Shown here piece by piece: positions 23,534 to 34,556 of a DNA stretch of 56,916 nt. Under the pieces are notes generated by a model. That model was given only the letters and a program-made list of their open reading frames with translations. It ran no database searches and was not told the origin of the DNA. The number at the start of each line of letters is the position of its first letter. Position 1 is the first letter of the stretch. The position numbers and the translations under genes were made by a program. The DNA is taken from contig JAOZPE010000019.1 in the NCBI GenBank assembly GCA_029932915.1, positions 1 through 56,916 of the forward strand. Reading direction: 5' to 3'. The stretch comes from Candidatus Krumholzibacteriia bacterium. Lineage in GTDB: Bacteria; Krumholzibacteriota; Krumholzibacteriia; JAJRXK01.

Positions 23534-25972
23534 GTGGCCATCGCCGTCAGCTCGATGGACGACCGCACACTCGAGGAGACCCTGCGGTCGATGGGCATCA
23601 CCCTGACCTTGCACGAGGCCCGGCGTGTGGCCGAGCTGCTCGGACGCGATCCCACCGAGACCGAACTCACCTTGTTCGACACCATGTGGAGCGAGCACTG
23701 CTCGTACAAGAGCTCGCGGCCGGCGCTCAAGCGCCATCTGCCGACCGAGGCCTCCAACGTGGTGCTGGGCCCGTCCGAGGACGCCGGGGTCATCCATTTC
23801 ACCGAAGTGGACGGGGTGCGCTGGGCCCTGGCCATCGCCCATGAGAGCCACAACCACCCCTCGCAGGTGATGCCGCTGGAAGGCGCGGCGACGGGCATCG
23901 GCGGGGTCGTGCGCGACGTGTACTGCATGGGCGCCGACGTCATCGCCACCCTCGATCCGCTTCGTTTCGGCGATCCCCATGGGGAGAACGGAGAGCGCAG
24001 CCGGGAGATCGCCCGCGAGGTGGTCGAAGGGATCGCGGTCTATGGCAACGCGCTGGGGGTTCCCAACCTGGGCGGCGATGTGGTCTTCGATGGCTGCTAC
24101 GACGACAACTGCCTGGTGAACGTGGTCGCGATCGGCCTGGTCCGCGAAGACCGCATCACCCGCAGCCGTGTTCCCGAGGCCGCCCGCACCGAACCCTACG
24201 ACTTCCTGCTGGTGGGCAAGCCCACCGACTGGAGCGGCATGGGAGGCGCCGCCTTCGCCTCGGCCGATCTCGATGCCGAAGCCCTCAAGGAGAACCTGGG
24301 CAGCGTGCAGGTGCCCGATCCCTTCCTCAAGCGCATGCTCGTGCTGGCCAACCAGGCCATGCTCGAGGTGGCCTGGAGGGAGAAGGCGGCCATCGGCTTC
24401 AAGGACCTCGGCGCCGGGGGCATCGCCTGCGTCTCCTCCGAGCTGGCCGACGCCGGCGGCTTCGGTATCGAGCTCGACCTGGACGAGGCCAGCCTGGCCG
24501 AGGGCGATCTGCCCGCGCCGGTGGCCGCGTGCAGCGAGACCCAGGAGCGCTTCGGCATCGCCTGCCCGGCCCGTCTGACCCCACAGATCCTGCGCATCTA
24601 CAACGAGGTGTACGAACTGGGCTCGATGTACGAGGGCGCCGGAGCGCGGAAGGTGGGCCGGGTGGTTCCGCCCAAGGAGGACGAGGAACCCCGCTACCTC
24701 CTGCGCCGGGGCGCGCAGGTGCTGGTCGACGCTCCCATCTCCACCATCACCGAGGGCATCTCCTATGAGAGGGAGGCCCGGCCGGCGGTGGTGCACTTCT
24801 CCGAGCGGGCGCTTCCGGCGCAGGGCCGAGACTTCGCGGCCGACCTTCTCGATCTGCTCGCCAGCGAACACCTGTGCAGCCGCCGGCCCCTGTTCCAGCA
24901 CTACGACAGCGAGGTGAAGGCCGACACCGTGTTGCGCCCGGGTGAGGCCGACGCCGGCGTGGTCACCCCGGTCGAGGGAAGCTGGGCCGGCATGGCGGCC
25001 ACGGTCGATGGCAACCATCGCCTGTGCCGTATCGACCCCTACCTGGGAGCGGCCCATGCGGTGGTCGAGGCCGCGCGCAACGTGGCCTGCGTCGGCGCCA
25101 GTCCCGCCGCGATCACCGACTGCCTGAACTACGGCAACCCCGAAGTGCCGGAGGTCTTCCACGCCTTCGTCGAAGGGGTCCGCGGCATCGGCGACGCCTG
25201 CCGTGGACTGGGCCGTATCGAGGCCCCCGACGAGGCCCTTCCCGTGGTCAGCGGCAACGTGAGCTTCTACAACCAGAACGCCCGGGGGAAGGCCATCGCC
25301 CCGTCGCCCATCATCTGCTGTTTGGGGGTCACTCCCGATGCGAGCACCTGCCGCAGTCTCAGCCTGAAGGAGGAGGGGAACCTCCTGTACCGCCTCGGTG
25401 CCTTCCATGGCGAACTGGGGGGCAGCCTCTGGGCGGAGTGGGTCGATCCACAGTGGGTGGGGCCGCTGCCCCCTCTGGACTACGCGGCGATCCGCAGGGA
25501 ACTGGCGCTGGTGGTCGCCCTGGTGCGCGAGCGGAAGGTGCAGGCGGTGCACGACGTCTCCGAGGGCGGCAACCTGGTGGCCCTGGCCGAGATGGCCCTG
25601 GGGCGGGAGAGCCGCGGCCGGTGGGGACTGCGCGTGGACTTCTCGCCGCTGTGGAAGGAAGACGCTGACGCGCCGTCCGCCGCAGGAGCCACCGATGGCG
25701 GCACCGGCGGTGGGAAGCGGGCTCTGAGCCCCGAGGCGGTGGCCTGGGGGGAGGACGGTGGCTTCTGGCTGGAGGTGCGCCCCACCGACGCGGCCGAACT
25801 GGAGAGACGAGCAGAGGAGGCCGGCGTGTGGTGCGCCCGCCTGGGCGAGGTCAGCTCCGGGCGGAAGATGGTGGTGGAGGGCTTGCCCACTCCGGTCGAG
25901 ATCGATCTGGACGGACTGGCCGCCCGGCGCGAGCGCGGGATCTTCGAGTTGTTGCGGAGGGACGTGTCATGA
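23534..25972 (+). CDS. purL: Phosphoribosylformylglycinamidine synthase, large subunit (small-type PurL)
   Basis: 812 residues, the size of the short PurL form that works with separate PurS and PurQ. Converts FGAR to FGAM using ammonia passed from PurQ. Landmarks: WSEHCSYKSSRPALK with the catalytic His near the start, HESHNHPSQ, GGAATGIGGVVRDV-type Gly loop, and KDLGAGGIACVSSEL. The repeated AIR-synthase fold is visible in both halves. Starts with GTG 3 nt after purB, with GAGGAG upstream, and ends in an ATGA overlap with purQ. A short Ala/Gly/Thr-rich insertion lies at about residue 715-735. Confidence 0.96.
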   Translation: MAIAVSSMDDRTLEETLRSMGITLTLHEARRVAELLGRDPTETELTLFDTMWSEHCSYKSSRPALKRHLPTEASNVVLGPSEDAGVIHFTEVDGVRWALAIAHESHNHPSQVMPLEGAATGIGGVVRDVYCMGADVIATLDPLRFGDPHGENGERSREIAREVVEGIAVYGNALGVPNLGGDVVFDGCYDDNCLVNVVAIGLVREDRITRSRVPEAARTEPYDFLLVGKPTDWSGMGGAAFASADLDAEALKENLGSVQVPDPFLKRMLVLANQAMLEVAWREKAAIGFKDLGAGGIACVSSELADAGGFGIELDLDEASLAEGDLPAPVAACSETQERFGIACPARLTPQILRIYNEVYELGSMYEGAGARKVGRVVPPKEDEEPRYLLRRGAQVLVDAPISTITEGISYEREARPAVVHFSERALPAQGRDFAADLLDLLASEHLCSRRPLFQHYDSEVKADTVLRPGEADAGVVTPVEGSWAGMAATVDGNHRLCRIDPYLGAAHAVVEAARNVACVGASPAAITDCLNYGNPEVPEVFHAFVEGVRGIGDACRGLGRIEAPDEALPVVSGNVSFYNQNARGKAIAPSPIICCLGVTPDASTCRSLSLKEEGNLLYRLGAFHGELGGSLWAEWVDPQWVGPLPPLDYAAIRRELALVVALVRERKVQAVHDVSEGGNLVALAEMALGRESRGRWGLRVDFSPLWKEDADAPSAAGATDGGTGGGKRALSPEAVAWGEDGGFWLEVRPTDAAELERRAEEAGVWCARLGEVSSGRKMVVEGLPTPVEIDLDGLAARRERGIFELLRRDVS

Positions 25973-26790
25973 GCCGCGCGCGGATCGCCGTCCTGCAGTT
26001 CCCCGGCCTCAACTGCGAGCGGGAGACCCTCCGTGAACTGCAGCGTTCGGGGGTGGATGCCTCCATCGTGCGCTGGAACGAGGGGCCGTCCCGGATCCGC
26101 GACTTCGCGGGCTTCGTCATCCCCGGAGGTTTCTCCTACCAGGACCGGGTTCGGGCCGGAGCGATCGCGGCCAAGTCGTCCGTCCTGGACACCGTCGTGC
26201 GGGAGGTCGAGGGGGGCAAACCCATCCTGGGCATCTGCAACGGAGCGCAGATCCTCGTGGAGGCGGGCCTGGTGCCGGGCGAGGAACCCGGCCGGGTCGA
26301 TGTGTGCCTGGCCCGCAACCGCATCGAAGGGTGGAGCGGCTACCACTCTCGCTGGGTCTTCGTGAAGGCCCACGGCGACGGCAATTTCTTCACCGGCGAT
26401 CTCACCGAGCCCTTGCCCCTCGTGGTGGCCCACGCCGAGGGACGCTTCGTCAGCCGCGACCGCGAGGCATGGGAACGGCTGCGCCGGAAGGGACGCTTCG
26501 TCCTGCGCTACTGCGACAGCGAGGGCCGCGATCCCCGGGGATTCCCCGACAATCCCAACGGATCGCCCGATGACGTGGCGGGGATGTCGGGCCTGGACGG
26601 TCAGGTCCTGGCCTTCATGCCCCATCCCGAACGGGCCGCCCATCTGTGGCAGGTGCCCGAGGATCTGCCCGGTGTGTGGGGCGAGCGCCGCCGCCGGGCG
26701 GCGGGCGATCGGAGCGCGCTGATGGGGGATGGGCCGGGCCGCGTCCTCCTGCGCGCGTTCGCGCGCCTGAACCGGGGGGGATCGACGTGA
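25969..26790 (+). CDS. purQ: Phosphoribosylformylglycinamidine synthase, glutaminase subunit
   Basis: 273 residues. Class I glutamine amidotransferase: nucleophile C90 in GICNGAQIL, with the His/Glu of the triad in FMPHPERA near 215. It hydrolyses glutamine and passes ammonia to PurL. The start MSRARIAVLQFPGLNCERE is the usual PurQ front (VxxFPGxNCE). At 273 residues it is longer than the ~225-residue Bacillus form, resembling those with an extra C-terminal stretch. Overlaps purL by ATGA and the next gene by GTGA, so all three are translationally linked. Confidence 0.95.
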   Translation: MSRARIAVLQFPGLNCERETLRELQRSGVDASIVRWNEGPSRIRDFAGFVIPGGFSYQDRVRAGAIAAKSSVLDTVVREVEGGKPILGICNGAQILVEAGLVPGEEPGRVDVCLARNRIEGWSGYHSRWVFVKAHGDGNFFTGDLTEPLPLVVAHAEGRFVSRDREAWERLRRKGRFVLRYCDSEGRDPRGFPDNPNGSPDDVAGMSGLDGQVLAFMPHPERAAHLWQVPEDLPGVWGERRRRAAGDRSALMGDGPGRVLLRAFARLNRGGST

Positions 26791-27515: not shown

Positions 27516-28939
27516 AGCCCATCGATTCGGAACGTCTGCACGAGGAGTGCGGGGTGATGGCGGTGGTCAACCACCCCGAGGCACCGCGTCTGACCACCCT
27601 GGGTCTGGCCGCCCTGCAGCACCGCGGTCAGGAATCGGCAGGCCTGGCCGTCGCCGACGGCCACGTCGTGCACTCGCACCGGGCCATGGGCTATGTCAGC
27701 GATGCCCTGACCGACGAGGTCGTTCGGGGGCTGAAGGGTCATCTGGCCATCGGCCACGTGCGCTATTCCACCACCGGCTCGTCCAACCTGCGCAACGCCC
27801 AGCCCATCCATGTCACCTACAAGCGGGGCAGCCTGGCCATCGCCCACAACGGCAACCTCGTGAACGCCCAGACCCTGCGAAGGGAGATGGAGAACGAGGG
27901 CTCGATCTTCAACACCACCAACGACAGCGAGGTCATCCTGCACCTGGTGGCCCGCTCCCGGCAGGAGACCATCGACCGCGCCCTGGCCGAGGCCCTCCGT
28001 CAGGTCGAGGGGGCCTTCTCCCTGCTGGTCATCAATCCCGACACGGTGATGGTGGCCCGCGATCCGCGGGGCTTCCGCCCTCTGTGCCTGGGCAAGCTCG
28101 ATGGGGCCTGGGTAGCGGCCAGCGAAACCTGCGCCCTGGACATGATCGGGGCCCGCTACGAGCGGCAGGTCGATCCCGGGGAGATGGTGGTCCTCCACGC
28201 CGACGGCCGCATGGACAGCTACCGGTGGGCCGACGAGCAACCGGCGAGCATGTGCATCTTCGAGTACGTCTACTTCTCCCGGCCCGACAGCACCATCTAC
28301 GGCCGCAGCGTCGACCAGGTGCGGCGGCGCATGGGGGAGGCCCTCGGCCGGGAGGCCCCGGCCGATGCCGACGTGGTCATCGGCGTGCCCGACTCGTCCA
28401 ATACCGCCTCGCTGGGCTACAGCCGGGTCACCGGCATCCGCTGGGAGCTGGGACTCATCCGCAACCACTACGTGGGGAGGACCTTCATCCGGCCCAGCCA
28501 GGAGGTGCGCGACTTCTCCGTGCGCAAGAAGTACAACCCGGTGCGCCACGTGCTGCAGGGCAAGCGCGTGGTGGTCGTCGACGACTCGATCGTCCGGGGG
28601 ACGACCATGCGCAAGCTGGTGAAGATCATCCGCCAGGCGGGGGCGACTGAAGTCCACTTGCGGATTTCTTCGCCGCCGATCACCCATTCCTGCTACTACG
28701 GCATCGACACCCCCATCCGCCGGGAACTCATCGCCTCCTCCCATACGGTCCCGGAGATCGCGGCCTACCTGCAGGTGGACAGCCTGGCCTACCTCAGCAT
28801 CGAGGGCCTGATGTCCTCGGTCCAGGCCACGGAGGGCTTCTGCCGGGCCTGTTTCACCGGGGAATACCCCATCGCTCCCTCCGGGGTGGGCAAGGACGTC
28901 TTCGAGAGCGAAACGGCTCCCCAGACCCCCTCCTCCTAG
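27512..28939 (+). CDS. purF: Amidophosphoribosyltransferase
   Basis: 475 residues. Makes 5-phosphoribosylamine from PRPP and glutamine, the first committed purine step. The N-terminal Ntn-hydrolase domain begins after a 12-residue propeptide with C13 as nucleophile (LHEECGV). The PRPP site is VVVVDDSIVRGTT. Cysteines for a [4Fe-4S] cluster of the Bacillus-type enzyme are present: ASMCIFEYVYF, THSCYYGID and FCRACFTGEYP, so the enzyme is probably oxygen-sensitive. Last gene of the purine operon; starts with GTG overlapping the previous stop. A 46-bp tandem repeat follows the stop. Confidence 0.97.
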   Translation: MKPIDSERLHEECGVMAVVNHPEAPRLTTLGLAALQHRGQESAGLAVADGHVVHSHRAMGYVSDALTDEVVRGLKGHLAIGHVRYSTTGSSNLRNAQPIHVTYKRGSLAIAHNGNLVNAQTLRREMENEGSIFNTTNDSEVILHLVARSRQETIDRALAEALRQVEGAFSLLVINPDTVMVARDPRGFRPLCLGKLDGAWVAASETCALDMIGARYERQVDPGEMVVLHADGRMDSYRWADEQPASMCIFEYVYFSRPDSTIYGRSVDQVRRRMGEALGREAPADADVVIGVPDSSNTASLGYSRVTGIRWELGLIRNHYVGRTFIRPSQEVRDFSVRKKYNPVRHVLQGKRVVVVDDSIVRGTTMRKLVKIIRQAGATEVHLRISSPPITHSCYYGIDTPIRRELIASSHTVPEIAAYLQVDSLAYLSIEGLMSSVQATEGFCRACFTGEYPIAPSGVGKDVFESETAPQTPSS

Positions 28940-29054
28940 TTTCCCACCGGTCTTCGGCGTGCTTCTCCGCCGGTCCTCAGCCTGGTTTCCCGCCGGTCTT
29001 CGGCGCGCTTCTCCACCGATCTCCGGCCTGGTATGCCACCGGTCTCCGGCCTGG
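28940..29054. repeat. 46-bp tandem repeat downstream of purF
   Basis: Two and a half copies of a 46-bp unit made of two half-units. Half-units run 28940-28961, 28962-28985, 28986-29007, 29008-29031 and 29032-29054. Each reads roughly TTCYCCRCCGGTCTYCGGC and holds a short CCG...CGG inverted repeat (strongest in the third, CGCCG, loop GTCTT, CGGCG). The first two pairs are ~85-90% identical. The array starts one base after the purF stop. The function could be transcription termination, mRNA stabilisation, or a mobile palindromic element remnant. Confidence 0.85.
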
Positions 29055-29540
29055 TTCCCCGGTGGCCTCTCTCGGCCCCGGGAACGCCGAACTGGCCCAG
29101 AGGGGCCCGACGGTGTATCTTCAAGACGTCGACCGGCCTTCGCGGCCGAGGCGCTGTTCCCGCGATCCGGCCTCGCTCCTGAGGGTGTCGAGTCTTTCTG
29201 CAGCCGATCGGGGGGAAATGGCCCCGGCGCTTGCTACTGGGTTCAGGGAAGAAGGGATTTCTTCGAAGCCGTCTCCAAGGACCGGTTGACCACACGAAGG
29301 CGTCGGGTGCACAGTACGGCCGACCTCGTGTTCCAGACGAATGAAGCCTTCCTGCGAGAGGACGGGAGGGTGGGGGCCCCGGGCGGAGACATGAGCCCGA
29401 CCGGAAGCGGCCCGTCGATCCTCGAGCCGATCGACCGGGTGGACAAGCAGCACTGAACCTGGTCTGGGCGCCCGCCGGAGGAATACGCCAAGCGTTCCGG
29501 CGGATGCGGCCCGACCCCGAAGCTGGAAGCCCCGTCGGTC
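29055..29540 (+). other. Long non-coding stretch with possible structured RNA
   Basis: About 490 bp between the purF repeat and the next gene. A weak -10-like TATCTT is at 29116-29121. A CGGCC, TTCGC, GGCCG hairpin lies at 29134-29148. A larger imperfect hairpin is at 29461-29516. An open frame runs 28959-29456 but begins inside the repeat, has no ribosome site and resembles nothing I know. I find no match by eye to RNase P RNA, 6S RNA, SRP RNA, tmRNA, TPP, cobalamin or glycine riboswitch cores. Confidence 0.5.
29461..29516 (+). ncRNA. Strong imperfect hairpin, possible leader or small RNA element
   Basis: Outer stem GGTC-T-GGGC (29461-29469) pairs with GCCCGACC (29509-29516), leaving one bulged T. 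Inner stem CCGCCGGAG (29472-29480) pairs with TTCCGGCGG (29495-29503) and a 14-nt loop. It lies 25-80 nt upstream of the next coding start. No T-tract follows, so it is not a standard terminator. Confidence 0.4.
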
Positions 29541-31835
29541 ATGGTGGGCGGCGAGAGGGCGCGTGAGCGCAGCCCCGCCGCTGAGACAACTACGAAACGG
29601 GACTCGTCCGTGACCAACGACCACCAGCAGGTGGCGACAAGGGCGGCGAGCGACCCCGAGCTGGACCGGTACCATGTGCTGCTCGACGAGGAGATCCTGC
29701 CTCGTCTCGAGCGCCCCGGACGCTATGTCGGACCCCTGGAGGTCCGCGGGATCGCCCCTGACGGCGCGCCGACGCGCCTGGCCCTGCTCTGGCCTTCGAT
29801 GCCGGAGAGCCACCACGTACCACGAGAGCTGGCGCCCTGGAAGGCGGCGCTGGAAACGTCCTTGCACCAAACGGTGGAATGTGCGTTCACGCCTCCGCCC
29901 GACTGCGCAGCAGCCTTGGCGGAGAAGGGCCTCTGTCTGTTCACCCGTCCCGGCTGGTTCCCCCTCTCCCGATTCTCCACGCTCGCCGTCTGGATGGAGC
30001 ATCCTGCCCAGATCCTGGGTCTGTTGAGCATCCTGCGGGCCGGGGGCATTCCCTGGCGGCGGGAGGACCGACCGCAGGGTCCCCGTCTCGTGGCGGCCGG
30101 ACCGGCGACGCAGGTCCTGGCCGCGGTGCTGCCGGCCTGGGTGGACGCGATCGACGAGGGCCTCGAAGCGGAGGACTTCGCCCGTTTCGTTCGGGACGCC
30201 TCCACCGCTGGGGGGAACGAGGCCCTTGCGTCGGCTTCCCCCTTCCTCGACTCCCCATCTTCGGCCCGGGGGAACCCGTCGGCGGAGCTGCGCAACGCGC
30301 AGCCCACCGAGGAGAGGGTGCGGCCGATCGTGGCCGCCCATCGCCGGCCGCCCTGGGAGCAGGTCCAGGAGCGCTTCGGGGGCGCCCGTTGGACCCGCCT
30401 GAAGGTGTGGGCTGCATCGGAGGCCCTGCGCGGACGCCTGGGGCTCATTCCCACCGGAGAGCTGATCGACGCGCTGAACCGGGCCCTGGCCCATGAGTCG
30501 CGGGTGCTGGAAGTGGATCTGGCCGTGGGTCTGCCGGGGGAGACACCGGCGGACCGGGCGGCGATCGCCCGTCTGGGCCGCCAATTGGTGAAGATGGCGC
30601 CCCGGGGCGAACGACAGCTCCGTTTCCGGCTGCATGCCTGCCTGGAAGGGGAGCGGAGTCGCCGGGAGTGGCTGGAACAGGCCCGGCGTGACCTCGCTGC
30701 ATCCCGGCTCAAGGTGAACGTGTCCTCGGTGGCGGAGGAGAACCTGGACCGGGCGCTGGTCTCGGCGGGACGGGAGGACGCGGCGGTGATCGAGGAGCTG
30801 TGGGAGGCCGGAGCCTTCCATGGGGACAGCGATGCCGCATTCCTGACGGAGCGGTGGGCCTCCCTTGCCGACGGACATTCCATCTTCACCCCGAAGACCG
30901 AGGCCGAGGCCGATGCGGAGGCATCGATCGAGGCCGGTTCGGGATCGGTGGAAGCGGCGGCGACCGGCCTGGAGAAGGTCCAGCCCATCCCGGCCACCCT
31001 CGATGCCAACGGACATCCCCTGCCCGCTCCGGGCGCTGCGACGCCACGGGCGGGACGCAGGGATCGTTGGCAGCGTTGGGAGGCCCTGGTCCGCCGCGAA
31101 CATCCCCTGCGGGTGGCCTACGAGAAACGGGGCCGCGCGCGCCACCTCTCCCACCAGGAGACCCTGGAGATCCTCGTGGAAGCCTGCCGCCGCGGCGGCG
31201 TGTCCCTGGCCACGAGCGGAGTGGTTTCTCCCCGGCCGAAGCTGAGCTTCGGCTCTCCTCTACCTGCGGGTATCGAGGGTCGAGACGAATTCGTCGACCT
31301 GAGCCTGACCCACAAGCCCGCGGGTGTCGCCTACGCACTGAACGAGCATCTGCCGGAAGGCCTGCGCGTGCGTTGGGCGGAATATCTTCCTCCTGGCGAT
31401 CGAGCGGTCCACGCTCCCGTCGCAAGAGCGCGTTTCTCGGCCCGGTTGCGGCCCGAGCAGCTCGCGCAGGCGCGCGAACGGGTGGAGCGTTTCTCATCCG
31501 CTTCGAGCTGGGAGATCCACCGGATCAAGTCGGATGCCGACCTGGTCCTCGATTTGAAAGCTCAGGTCACGAACGTCCATCTCGTGGAGGGGGACGACGG
31601 CGGCGCCGAATTGAGATTCGACCTGGATACCGTCGACTCCACGCCTCGAGCACGGCCCTACGAGGTGCTTGCCGCGCTGACCGGCGTCGATGCCCCTGAC
31701 GTTCGAACCATTTTCCTGTGCCGTGTCTCGCTGTTCAGCCGCGGAGGCGACCCCATGGGGAGTTGGAAGACTCCCCGGGAGATCCTGGAACTCGCCCAGC
31801 GCAAGTCGAGGCAGGCAATGAAGCGTTTCGCTTAG
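29541..31835 (+). CDS. Radical-SAM (TIGR03960)/DUF2344 family protein lacking the cluster motif
   Basis: 764 residues (GTG 29610 is an alternative start). The front EEILPRLERPGRYVGPLE matches the start of the TIGR03960 B12-binding radical-SAM proteins. Remnants of the barrel remain: AVGLPGETPADRAAI, SSVAEENLDRALVSAGR and EELWEAGAFHGDSDAAF. But the CxxxCxxC iron-sulfur motif is absent; the few cysteines (EC at ~113, DC at ~119, etc.) are isolated. The C-terminal DUF2344 domain (from about residue 520: HPLRVAYEKRGRARHLSHQE) looks intact and ends with LFSRGGDPMGSWKTPREI. DUF2344 proteins commonly sit before RNase G, as here (12 bp gap). Function unknown; catalysis by a radical mechanism is unlikely. 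Confidence 0.8.
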   Translation: MVGGERARERSPAAETTTKRDSSVTNDHQQVATRAASDPELDRYHVLLDEEILPRLERPGRYVGPLEVRGIAPDGAPTRLALLWPSMPESHHVPRELAPWKAALETSLHQTVECAFTPPPDCAAALAEKGLCLFTRPGWFPLSRFSTLAVWMEHPAQILGLLSILRAGGIPWRREDRPQGPRLVAAGPATQVLAAVLPAWVDAIDEGLEAEDFARFVRDASTAGGNEALASASPFLDSPSSARGNPSAELRNAQPTEERVRPIVAAHRRPPWEQVQERFGGARWTRLKVWAASEALRGRLGLIPTGELIDALNRALAHESRVLEVDLAVGLPGETPADRAAIARLGRQLVKMAPRGERQLRFRLHACLEGERSRREWLEQARRDLAASRLKVNVSSVAEENLDRALVSAGREDAAVIEELWEAGAFHGDSDAAFLTERWASLADGHSIFTPKTEAEADAEASIEAGSGSVEAAATGLEKVQPIPATLDANGHPLPAPGAATPRAGRRDRWQRWEALVRREHPLRVAYEKRGRARHLSHQETLEILVEACRRGGVSLATSGVVSPRPKLSFGSPLPAGIEGRDEFVDLSLTHKPAGVAYALNEHLPEGLRVRWAEYLPPGDRAVHAPVARARFSARLRPEQLAQARERVERFSSASSWEIHRIKSDADLVLDLKAQVTNVHLVEGDDGGAELRFDLDTVDSTPRARPYEVLAALTGVDAPDVRTIFLCRVSLFSRGGDPMGSWKTPREILELAQRKSRQAMKRFA

Positions 31836-31847
31836 GTAACATCGATC

Positions 31848-34556
31848 ATGAAGAAAGAAATCGTCGTCAATTCAACTCCCAACGAGATCCGGATCGGCAT
31901 CGTCGAAGACGGTGAGCTGGTCGAACTGCTCGGAGACAGCGCGGACTCGACCCGGATGGTGGGCAATGTCTACCTGGGGAAGGTCACCGCCGTCCGGCCG
32001 GGTCTGCAGGCCGCCTTCGTCGACATCGGTTACGAGAAGGCCGGCTTCCTCCACGTGAGCGATCTCGTGCACGAGGAACCCGAGGAGACCAAGTCCGACA
32101 ACGGCGGCGAGCGCCGCCGGGGCCGCAGCCGTGAGGGGATGCGTCCCATCGAGCGGATGATCCGCGAGGGCGATCAGCTCCTCGTGCAGGTGGTCAAGGA
32201 GGCCCTGGGAACCAAGGGGCCGCGCCTGACCGCCGACATCAGCCTTCCCGGGCGCTTCCTCGTGCTGATGCCCAAGGGCAAGCACGTCGGCGTGAGCCGC
32301 AAGATCGGCGACCGCCAGGAGCGGGCCCGCTTGAAGGCGATGCTCACCTCGGTTCGCCCGGACAAGGGCGCGTTCATCATCCGCACGGCCGGCGAGGGCA
32401 TCGACGAGAAGATGCTGCGCAAGGACGTGGAGTATCTCACCTCGACCCTGCAGAAGATCGAGGAGCGCGCGAAGGAAGTGACCGCTCCGGCCATCGTCCA
32501 CGAGGACGTCGGTCTCATCGTGGGTCTCATCCGCGATGTCCTGACCGAGGACGTCGACGCGGTCCACATCGACAACGAGGTCGACTACCGCCGCCTGGTC
32601 GAATACGTGAAGACCTTCTCGCCCAAGCTGCTCAACCGCATCAAGCTGTACCGCGGCGACGTCTCGCTGTTCGACAAGTTCGACATCGAGAGCGAGCTCA
32701 AGCGAAGCCTCGAGCGGAAGGTGTGGATGAAGAAGGGTGGCTACATCGTCATCGACCAGACCGAGGCGCTGGTGGCCATCGACGTCAACACCGGGCGGTT
32801 CACCGGAAAGAGGAACCAGGAAGAGACCATCTTCAAGACCAACATGATGGCGGCACGGGAGGTTCCCCGGCAACTGCGCCTGCGCAACATCGGCGGGATC
32901 GTGGTCATCGACTTCATCGACATGGAGAACGAGGCCAACAAGAGGAAGGTGCTCAACGAGCTGCGTACCTACCTCAAACGCGACCGCGCCCGGACCAAGA
33001 CCTTCACCATCAGCGATCTGGGCCTGGTGGAGATGAGCCGTCAACGGGTGCGCGAGAGCCTGCAGTCGCGGCTGAGCGACACCTGTCCCTTCTGCAAGGG
33101 CAGCGGCTACATCCTCTCGCTCGACACCCTGGCCAACCGGGTCGAGCGCCTGTTGGCCAAGTGCGGGCTGACGACGCGGGAGACCGCCATCCAGGTGCAG
33201 GCCAATCCCAGTCTGGCCGTCCACCTGCTGACCGATCGGGGCGCGGCCATCGAGAAGATCGCGCGCGATTTCAACATGAAGATCGACATCCTCGACGACG
33301 CCCGTATCCATCGCGAGGACTTCCGCATCGTCTCCCTGCGCAGCCGCAAGGATCTGACCAGCCAACTGGAGAGCGCGTCGTGGAAGGGGGCGGTCACCCG
33401 CCGCTCGAGCGCCGCGGCCCAGGCCGGAGGGTCGGATTCGAGGGAGAGCAGCGACAGACGCGGACGGGGCGGGCGATCGCGCAACGCCGAGGCGGGCCGC
33501 GGAGGCCGGGATGAAGGCCGCCGGGAGAGCCCGTCGCGGAGTGGGCGGCGGGAGGAGAGCCGCTCGGCTTCCGATACGAGGCGTTCACAGGGCGGTCGTC
33601 GTTCGACGGCGCGCGAGGAAAGCCCCGAACGCGAGGGACGTCCGGTCAGCGGTGGACGGGAGGGCCGGACCGCCGAGTCTTCCGGCGGGCGGCGTTCCTC
33701 CACTTCGCGCGGCCGGCGCTCCGACAGTCGCCCGACGCGCAGCGGGGCGGCACCGGATACGGCTTCGGCACCACCGCGATCCCAATCGTCCGCCGCCGGC
33801 GGCGACGATGCAACGAAGGCCTCGGAGGACCGTTCCCCTGCTCCCGTCGGGACGGGCGAGGAGGGCTCCCGGAGCACTTCGAGCACCCGCCGCCGCCGTG
33901 GCCGCCGCGGCCGTCGCGGGCGCGGTCGGGGACGCAGCAAGAGCAGTGAAGAGGCCGCGGTCGCTGGAGGGAGCGAGAGCTCCGGGTCGCGTGCGGAGGC
34001 GACAGGGGCCCAGGCGACAGGGGCAGGGGAGAAGGAAGACGCCTCGCCGACCGCAGCCGCGGGGATGCAGAAGGATCAGGGTTCTTCCCGGGCTCCCTCG
34101 GGCCCGGCCACGGATACCGCGGAGTCCGGGGGACCTGCTGCCGATCCCGGTCGTGCCGATGAAGTCCCGACGTCCTCGGAGCGGAGCAGCCGCACGAGGC
34201 GGCGTCGGGTTCCTTCCTCGCGCGGGCGTTCGCGGCCGACGGGTCGTTCCGAGGCGCCGGAGCGTCCCGAGTCGGCCGATCGTCCCGAAGCACCGGAGCG
34301 TCCCCGATCGACGCCCCGTCCCGAGTCGACCGATCGTCCCGAAGCGCCGGAGCGTCCGGGACCCGTGAGCCAGCCTTCGCCGCCTCCGGTGGATCCCACT
34401 CCAGCCCGGCCGGAGCCTTCCGGTGCAGGGTCCGGGGAAGCGGATCGGCCGCCGAGCGCTTCCAGGGCGGTCGAGTCGACGACCGGCCCGGCCGCTTCGA
34501 GTGAGGAGAAGCCGCGCCGGCGGGGTCGGCGACCGCGGCGGGTCGTGCGGCGCTGA
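31848..34556 (+). CDS. rng: Ribonuclease G/E family protein with long disordered tail
   Basis: 902 residues, roughly twice the length of RNase G. N-terminal S1 RNA-binding domain (about 36-125) with an Arg/Glu insertion, then the catalytic core: metal-binding D312 in IDVNTGRFTGKRNQEET and D355 in VVIDFIDM, and the zinc-link CPFCKGSGY (C413, C416). It processes rRNA and starts mRNA decay. From about residue 510 to the end lies a disordered tail rich in Arg, Ser, Gly, Pro and Glu with RGRRGRRGRGRGR-type RNA-binding patches and 12-residue RPEAPERP repeats. By analogy with RNase E this tail could scaffold a degradosome. The weak ribosome site suggests coupling to the upstream gene. Confidence 0.95.
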   Translation: MKKEIVVNSTPNEIRIGIVEDGELVELLGDSADSTRMVGNVYLGKVTAVRPGLQAAFVDIGYEKAGFLHVSDLVHEEPEETKSDNGGERRRGRSREGMRPIERMIREGDQLLVQVVKEALGTKGPRLTADISLPGRFLVLMPKGKHVGVSRKIGDRQERARLKAMLTSVRPDKGAFIIRTAGEGIDEKMLRKDVEYLTSTLQKIEERAKEVTAPAIVHEDVGLIVGLIRDVLTEDVDAVHIDNEVDYRRLVEYVKTFSPKLLNRIKLYRGDVSLFDKFDIESELKRSLERKVWMKKGGYIVIDQTEALVAIDVNTGRFTGKRNQEETIFKTNMMAAREVPRQLRLRNIGGIVVIDFIDMENEANKRKVLNELRTYLKRDRARTKTFTISDLGLVEMSRQRVRESLQSRLSDTCPFCKGSGYILSLDTLANRVERLLAKCGLTTRETAIQVQANPSLAVHLLTDRGAAIEKIARDFNMKIDILDDARIHREDFRIVSLRSRKDLTSQLESASWKGAVTRRSSAAAQAGGSDSRESSDRRGRGGRSRNAEAGRGGRDEGRRESPSRSGRREESRSASDTRRSQGGRRSTAREESPEREGRPVSGGREGRTAESSGGRRSSTSRGRRSDSRPTRSGAAPDTASAPPRSQSSAAGGDDATKASEDRSPAPVGTGEEGSRSTSSTRRRRGRRGRRGRGRGRSKSSEEAAVAGGSESSGSRAEATGAQATGAGEKEDASPTAAAGMQKDQGSSRAPSGPATDTAESGGPAADPGRADEVPTSSERSSRTRRRRVPSSRGRSRPTGRSEAPERPESADRPEAPERPRSTPRPESTDRPEAPERPGPVSQPSPPPVDPTPARPEPSGAGSGEADRPPSASRAVESTTGPAASSEEKPRRRGRRPRRVVRR
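34245..34361 (+). repeat. 36-bp in-frame repeats in the RNase G tail
   Basis: About three imperfect copies encode RSEAPERPESAD, RPEAPERPRSTP, (RPESTD), RPEAPERPGPVS. Copies are similar enough to expand or contract by slippage. Not a CRISPR array: in frame, no spacers. Confidence 0.85.

Follow-up and report, generated by a model that had tools for sequence, protein, structure and literature searches.

A TIGR03960/DUF2344 protein without its radical-SAM centre, encoded upstream of RNase G in a family of Krumholzibacteriota

The DNA stretch analysed here (the window, 56,916 nucleotides of a Candidatus Krumholzibacteriia genome) encodes, just upstream of the ribonuclease E/G gene (rng), a protein that an earlier note, made from the sequence alone, had described as a radical-SAM family member without its iron-sulfur motif. 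The question raised by this locus is whether this protein, hereafter X, has indeed lost its radical centre and what the remainder might be kept for. X is a variant of the known, uncharacterised TIGR03960/DUF2344 family. In the literature searched no functional study of TIGR03960/DUF2344 was found, and searches on TIGR03960, TIGR03936, PF10105 and radical-SAM pseudoenzymes gave nothing relevant except for one mention of DUF2344, which is listed among the Pfam pseudouridine synthase families in a published discussion (PMC7955657).

The absence of CxxxCxxC claimed in the earlier note was confirmed: a six-frame search of positions 28900-31900 did not find the motif, and the six cysteines of X (114, 122, 132, 367, 549 and 727) form no CxxC, so that there is no frameshift hiding the motif in X. 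With its 98 contigs the window genome is still a draft, which could favour a frameshift or an assembly error as the origin of the missing motif; however, this explanation was dismissed and its chance is in our opinion negligible, since no frame contains the motif and three other genomes of the same family show the same anatomy. The length of the open reading frame is in itself weak evidence for a gene, as this is a high-GC genome and a 712-codon antisense frame is also present. The likely start is the GTG indicated in Table 1, because the homology among orthologues begins there (VTNDH, MNNDH or VIEDH) and residues 1-35 were modelled with pLDDT <50.

The N-terminal region matched TIGR03960 only at residues 50-205 and weakly (27.8 bits vs a cut-off of 462.3). 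Radical_SAM_N2 (PF19864) was detected in X (6.8e-8, score 32.5, gathering cut-off 29) and scored 20.5, 19.4 and none in its three orthologues, and 16 of the 40 family-conserved positions of the N-terminal domain are retained in X. Neither X nor its orthologues showed a Pfam match to Radical_SAM (PF04055). An alignment with intact TIGR03960-DUF2344 proteins, as the earlier note had proposed, revealed that X lacks the first half of the barrel together with the cluster loop, a deletion of roughly half of the radical-SAM barrel. The second half, from FAPEAGS onward and including the GLPTET region, persists in altered form: residues 284-422 can be aligned to this half of the intact barrel (GLPGETPADR vs GLPTETNEDL) and were modelled as strand-helix units, in agreement with the barrel remnant previously noticed. 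The scores for DUF2344 (PF10105, 8.7e-25, score 88.1 vs a cut-off of 23.8) and TIGR03936 (111.3 vs a cut-off of 71.9) were above threshold, and the whole protein was modelled with a pLDDT of 82 and a pTM of 0.82.

Table 1. Coordinates of X, its parts and its neighbours within the window; residue numbers refer to X
Feature	Position	Strand	Description
purQ	25828..26790 (start approximate)	+	Further upstream neighbour, conserved at the locus
purF	27518..28939 (start approximate)	+	Upstream neighbour, conserved at the locus
X	29541..31835	+	rSAM-less TIGR03960/DUF2344 protein, 764 codons; probable start GTG 29610
X, N-terminal domain (residues 40-210)	29658..30170	+	Radical_SAM_N2 / B12-binding-like, diverged
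X, junction (residues 225-283)	30213..30389	+	First barrel half with CxxxCxxC missing (alignment and six-frame search)
X, second radical-SAM barrel half (residues 284-422)	30390..30806	+	Altered; includes GLPGETPADR
X, DUF2344 / TIGR03936 (residues 523-734)	31107..31742	+	Predicted TruA-type fold; signature positions G561 and H563 replaced
rng, ribonuclease E/G	31848..34556	+	PF10150 1.7e-103; 12 bases downstream of X

The Krumholzibacteriota family of the window genome (f1) was represented by four genomes of three genera, all of which encode a rSAM-less X upstream of rng, with no stop codons and no CxxxCxxC; no X of this type was found in the remaining 76 Krumholzibacteriota genomes analysed. 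The four proteins share 33-37% identity (30-41% over every domain), vs 63-70% for the intact paralogue described below and 60-77% for RNase G. Conservation clearly exceeds expectation at codon positions 1 and 2 but not at position 3, which is saturated; as the protein-level alignment helps this test, the pattern supports selection on X without proving it. The invariant residues lie mostly in DUF2344 and at structural positions. This fast divergence could imply that X is a decaying gene under weak constraint whose reading frame has not yet been lost, the more so as conserved positions have disappeared in every domain and the gene is wholly gone from the locus in family f2. However, the frame is open in the four genomes with identity extending over every domain, codon positions 1 and 2 are conserved while position 3 is saturated, the predicted fold is confident, and the parallel cases presented below are under purifying constraint as judged from their dN/dS; decay is therefore unlikely in our view. 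Relatives of X were also sought in genome contigs, where a single protein query retrieved none and an alignment query retrieved two, both Candidatus Krumholzibacteriota records that match orthologous contigs of f1, and in viral contigs, where none was found; the plasmid search gave one weak match, to DUF2344 only, in an 11.85-Mb Nonomuraea record.

The gene order purQ-purF-X-rng is common to the families of the phylum wherever the flanks were readable, and what occupies the place of X differs among them. In f3, f5 and f7 it is an intact rSAM-DUF2344 fusion; in f6, a lone DUF2344 protein of 259-281 aa (with the exception of genome G022, in which it is not near rng); and in f1, the rSAM-less protein. 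Both f2 genomes read are without X and have only some 650-720 bases between purF and rng, and no DUF2344 gene adjoins rng in those f4 genomes that were read. X thus stands where other families have their rng-linked TIGR03960-DUF2344 radical-SAM protein, to which it is related. The families f1, f2, f4 and f6 possess in addition an unlinked TIGR03960 protein (type A), which in f6 is without DUF2344. In the window genome the type A TIGR03960-DUF2344 paralogue is intact, carries the motif CTEGCRFC and is located on another contig (C42), unlinked to X; every f1 genome has both genes. In f1, then, X has lost the first barrel half with the cluster-binding loop, and the radical centre remains in the unlinked intact copy. 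The claim that the radical chemistry was lost and DUF2344 retained is accordingly supported for the protein, given its four orthologues, the conserved gene order and two independent losses elsewhere, but not for the cell, which keeps an intact paralogue.

In a tree, the closest grouping of type A is with a protein of another phylum and not with the f5 type (100/99), which implies that it was acquired or is an old paralogue. The f1 DUF2344 domains scored highest against the rng-linked profiles (f5 and outside the phylum). As the deep position of the f1 clade was not resolved in the DUF2344 tree, the history of the locus relies on gene order and profile scores; in its simplest form, the radical function would have passed to type A, and the gene first present at the locus would then have been lost, cut to DUF2344 or kept without the radical centre. 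The possibility that X is a recent duplicate of the intact paralogue was dismissed, as the DUF2344 scores favour the rng-linked type and the gene order marks the original place.

It is worth mentioning that in f6 the two parts of the fusion are encoded separately (L106 and L107 of G012, and other f6 genomes): the rSAM protein (about 600 aa, CPNxCRFC) is unlinked, and the DUF2344 protein (259-281 aa) mostly adjoins rng. The window genome also encodes a third TIGR03960-like protein of 611 aa (L002:1429-3264, contig C87 of G000), which has the motif CGRGCRFC, lacks DUF2344 and lies between TPR-type proteins; other families of the phylum encode proteins like it, about 500-600 aa long.

About 60 rSAM-DUF2344 fusions from outside the phylum were read for the cluster motif, and nearly all have motifs of the CxxxC type. 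Two groups were exceptions. In G088 and its order-mates G387 and G388 the motif region has drifted. In G375 and G389 the sequence is AGHNCRVC, with the first cysteine replaced by alanine, and in the accompanying G390 the motif region is gone; G392, a sister of these three, is intact (CGHACRFC). These four genomes form a series of stepwise decay, from the intact motif to the Cys-to-Ala replacement to the missing motif; hence the stepwise loss that the earlier note had suggested looking for in relatives was found in other lineages, but not in f1 itself. None of the six exceptions has a TIGR03960 match over the cut-off. Well-supported branches of the tree force two separate losses outside the phylum, and there are three independent losses in all, f1 included. 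The rSAM-less protein of G088/G387 showed a dN/dS of 0.13 (0.077 for RNase G) and the motif-altered protein of G375/G389 a dN/dS of 0.22, and the former barrel is under about the same constraint as the rest of the protein. The idea that loss is always paired with an intact second copy was dismissed by G088, G387, G375 and G390. In G088, G387, G388 and G375 the rSAM-less gene does not adjoin rng, and the rng of the lineages of G088 and G375 is located far away or on a different contig; the link to RNase G is therefore not general.

Some other arrangements were also noticed. G392 (L280, L283 and L298) has, besides its intact fusion, a 321-aa DUF2344 frame just upstream of a second rng; this draft has 4% contamination and the second rng locus may be foreign. 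In L269 (G177) and L268 (G315) two TIGR03960-type proteins are adjacent, one with and one without DUF2344.

Regarding DUF2344 itself, the best matches of the X model in the PDB were TruA and Pus1 (E 3e-8). When this domain was modelled alone (pLDDT 93.7), TruA/Pus1 were again retrieved (1dj0, E 2e-8, TM about 0.5), the DUF2344 profile had a single match in the PDB, TruA 1vs3 (E 0.001), and hhalign of this profile with ten TruA sequences gave an E of 7.2e-5 and a probability of 63%. In this distant alignment, none of 54 DUF2344 sequences, intact members included, has an aspartate at the catalytic position of TruA (D60 in E. coli); the aligned residue is P, A, S, R, T or K, and P575 in X. These data suggest that DUF2344 is TruA-like and, as far as a distant alignment can indicate, probably not a pseudouridine synthase, whether in X or in the intact proteins; RNA binding would be likelier than pseudouridylation, given the missing aspartate. 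The earlier note had called DUF2344 perhaps RNA-related on account of its RNase G neighbour; the TruA fold of the models now adds to the neighbourhood, RNA binding remaining a predicted property.

The same note had called the domain intact. In X it retains 8 of the 9 strongly conserved positions (6-8 among the f1 copies), but a signature, [YF][ST]xG[FY][HN]P, which was defined from the 50 DUF2344 sequences other than the four f1 copies, is lost in all four. Its glycine is present in 50 of those 50 sequences, among them G088, G375 and the lone f6 domains, and is replaced by V, I, V and R in the f1 copies. Thus f1, where an intact paralogue is present, has lost both the radical centre and the DUF2344 signature, whereas G088 and G375, with no intact paralogue, have lost the radical centre only. 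This distribution suggests, without proving it, that the signature serves the ancestral function of DUF2344, from which the f1 protein may have moved further away.

Taking these observations together, we tentatively propose, with confidence falling just short of even, that X is a radical-SAM pseudoenzyme retained as a non-catalytic, putatively RNA-binding protein linked to RNase G. The TIGR03960-DUF2344 family would have two separable functions: a radical-SAM reaction, carried out by the N-terminal B12-binding-like domain and the barrel, and docking by DUF2344, a TruA-like fold without the catalytic aspartate that probably binds structured RNA handled together with RNase E/G, such as rRNA or tRNA precursors. 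X would now serve only for docking or as a scaffold, associated with RNA or the ribosome without any catalysis and, in view of the 12-base gap, probably expressed together with RNase G. This proposal draws on the orthologues in the four f1 genomes, the shared purQ-purF-X-rng order, the intact paralogue on C42 and the rng-linked DUF2344 scores, as well as on the independent losses without an intact copy, with their low dN/dS, on the TruA fold found by model and by profile, and on the conservation of codon positions 1 and 2. Against it, a second DUF2344 copy is not obviously needed, since the intact paralogue has one, and the RNase G link fails in the lineages mentioned above. The fast evolution of the f1 proteins and their lost signature further imply that the docking site of f1 may differ or be decaying.

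TruA enzymes are dimers, and X could instead serve the intact paralogue as a structural or regulatory partner, in a heteromer of active and inactive rSAM-DUF2344 chains. Both proteins occur in every f1 genome, and the separate rSAM and DUF2344 chains of f6 imply that the parts can work in trans. We nevertheless regard such a heteromer as improbable, because G088, G387, G375 and G390 have the rSAM-less protein without any intact partner, and in f1 the genes of the two proteins are on separate contigs and differ greatly in evolutionary rate. Even less probable, in our estimation, is that X gained a new catalytic activity using the old N-terminal domain and half-barrel: both are retained and were modelled with good confidence, but we recognised no group of potentially catalytic residues that had become newly conserved, a weak test with four sequences only.

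Compared with the TIGR03960-TIGR03936/DUF2344 fusions of f3, f5 and f7, the pseudoenzyme proposed here has the same place between purF and rng, DUF2344 and a diverged N-terminal domain, and differs in the absence of CxxxCxxC and the first barrel half and in its subthreshold TIGR03960 score. It resembles the stand-alone DUF2344 (TIGR03936) of f6 in adjoining rng with no radical centre in the same chain; however, the f6 protein is DUF2344 alone with the signature glycine, and X adds the N-terminal domain and the half-barrel and has lost the signature. To the TruA and Pus1 pseudouridine synthases it is related by predicted fold and profile, but sequence identity is low and DUF2344 has no aspartate at the D60 position. 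MgmA, the methyl-coenzyme M reductase glutamine methylase (9ccb), is the solved structure nearest by sequence to the intact paralogue (E 4.4e-5) and also a fold match for X (E 4e-4); it differs in having a complete radical-SAM domain, according to its description, and no link to DUF2344.

The TIGR03960/DUF2344 family is widespread, with DUF2344 present also in Synechococcus elongatus and Thermotoga maritima, and these natural variants, in which only the radical centre is lost, uncouple one half of the protein from the other, the remainder being worth keeping even where no intact copy exists. A TruA-like DUF2344 without the catalytic aspartate offers a concrete, testable idea of the role of that half, and the purF-X-rng locus, with its intact, reduced and empty versions, a ready comparison set. 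More broadly, though more doubtfully, the conserved second function of the family might be to dock on RNA through a TruA fold without catalytic activity, a function that could be kept on its own, with the radical centre repeatedly discarded across bacteria to give a recurrent class of radical-SAM pseudoenzymes in RNA maturation.

Finally, the roughly 600 bases that separate purF from X (28940-29540) contain no Pfam-supported gene; no promoter-like site was found upstream of X, which says little in this phylum, and Rfam detected in the window only a tRNA, at its end. The C-terminal tail of the window's RNase G spans about 390 residues (33400-34556) and is rich in Arg, Ser, Gly and Pro, and the RNases G of its f1 relatives are also long-tailed (frames of 891-1031 codons, vs about 520 in most other families).
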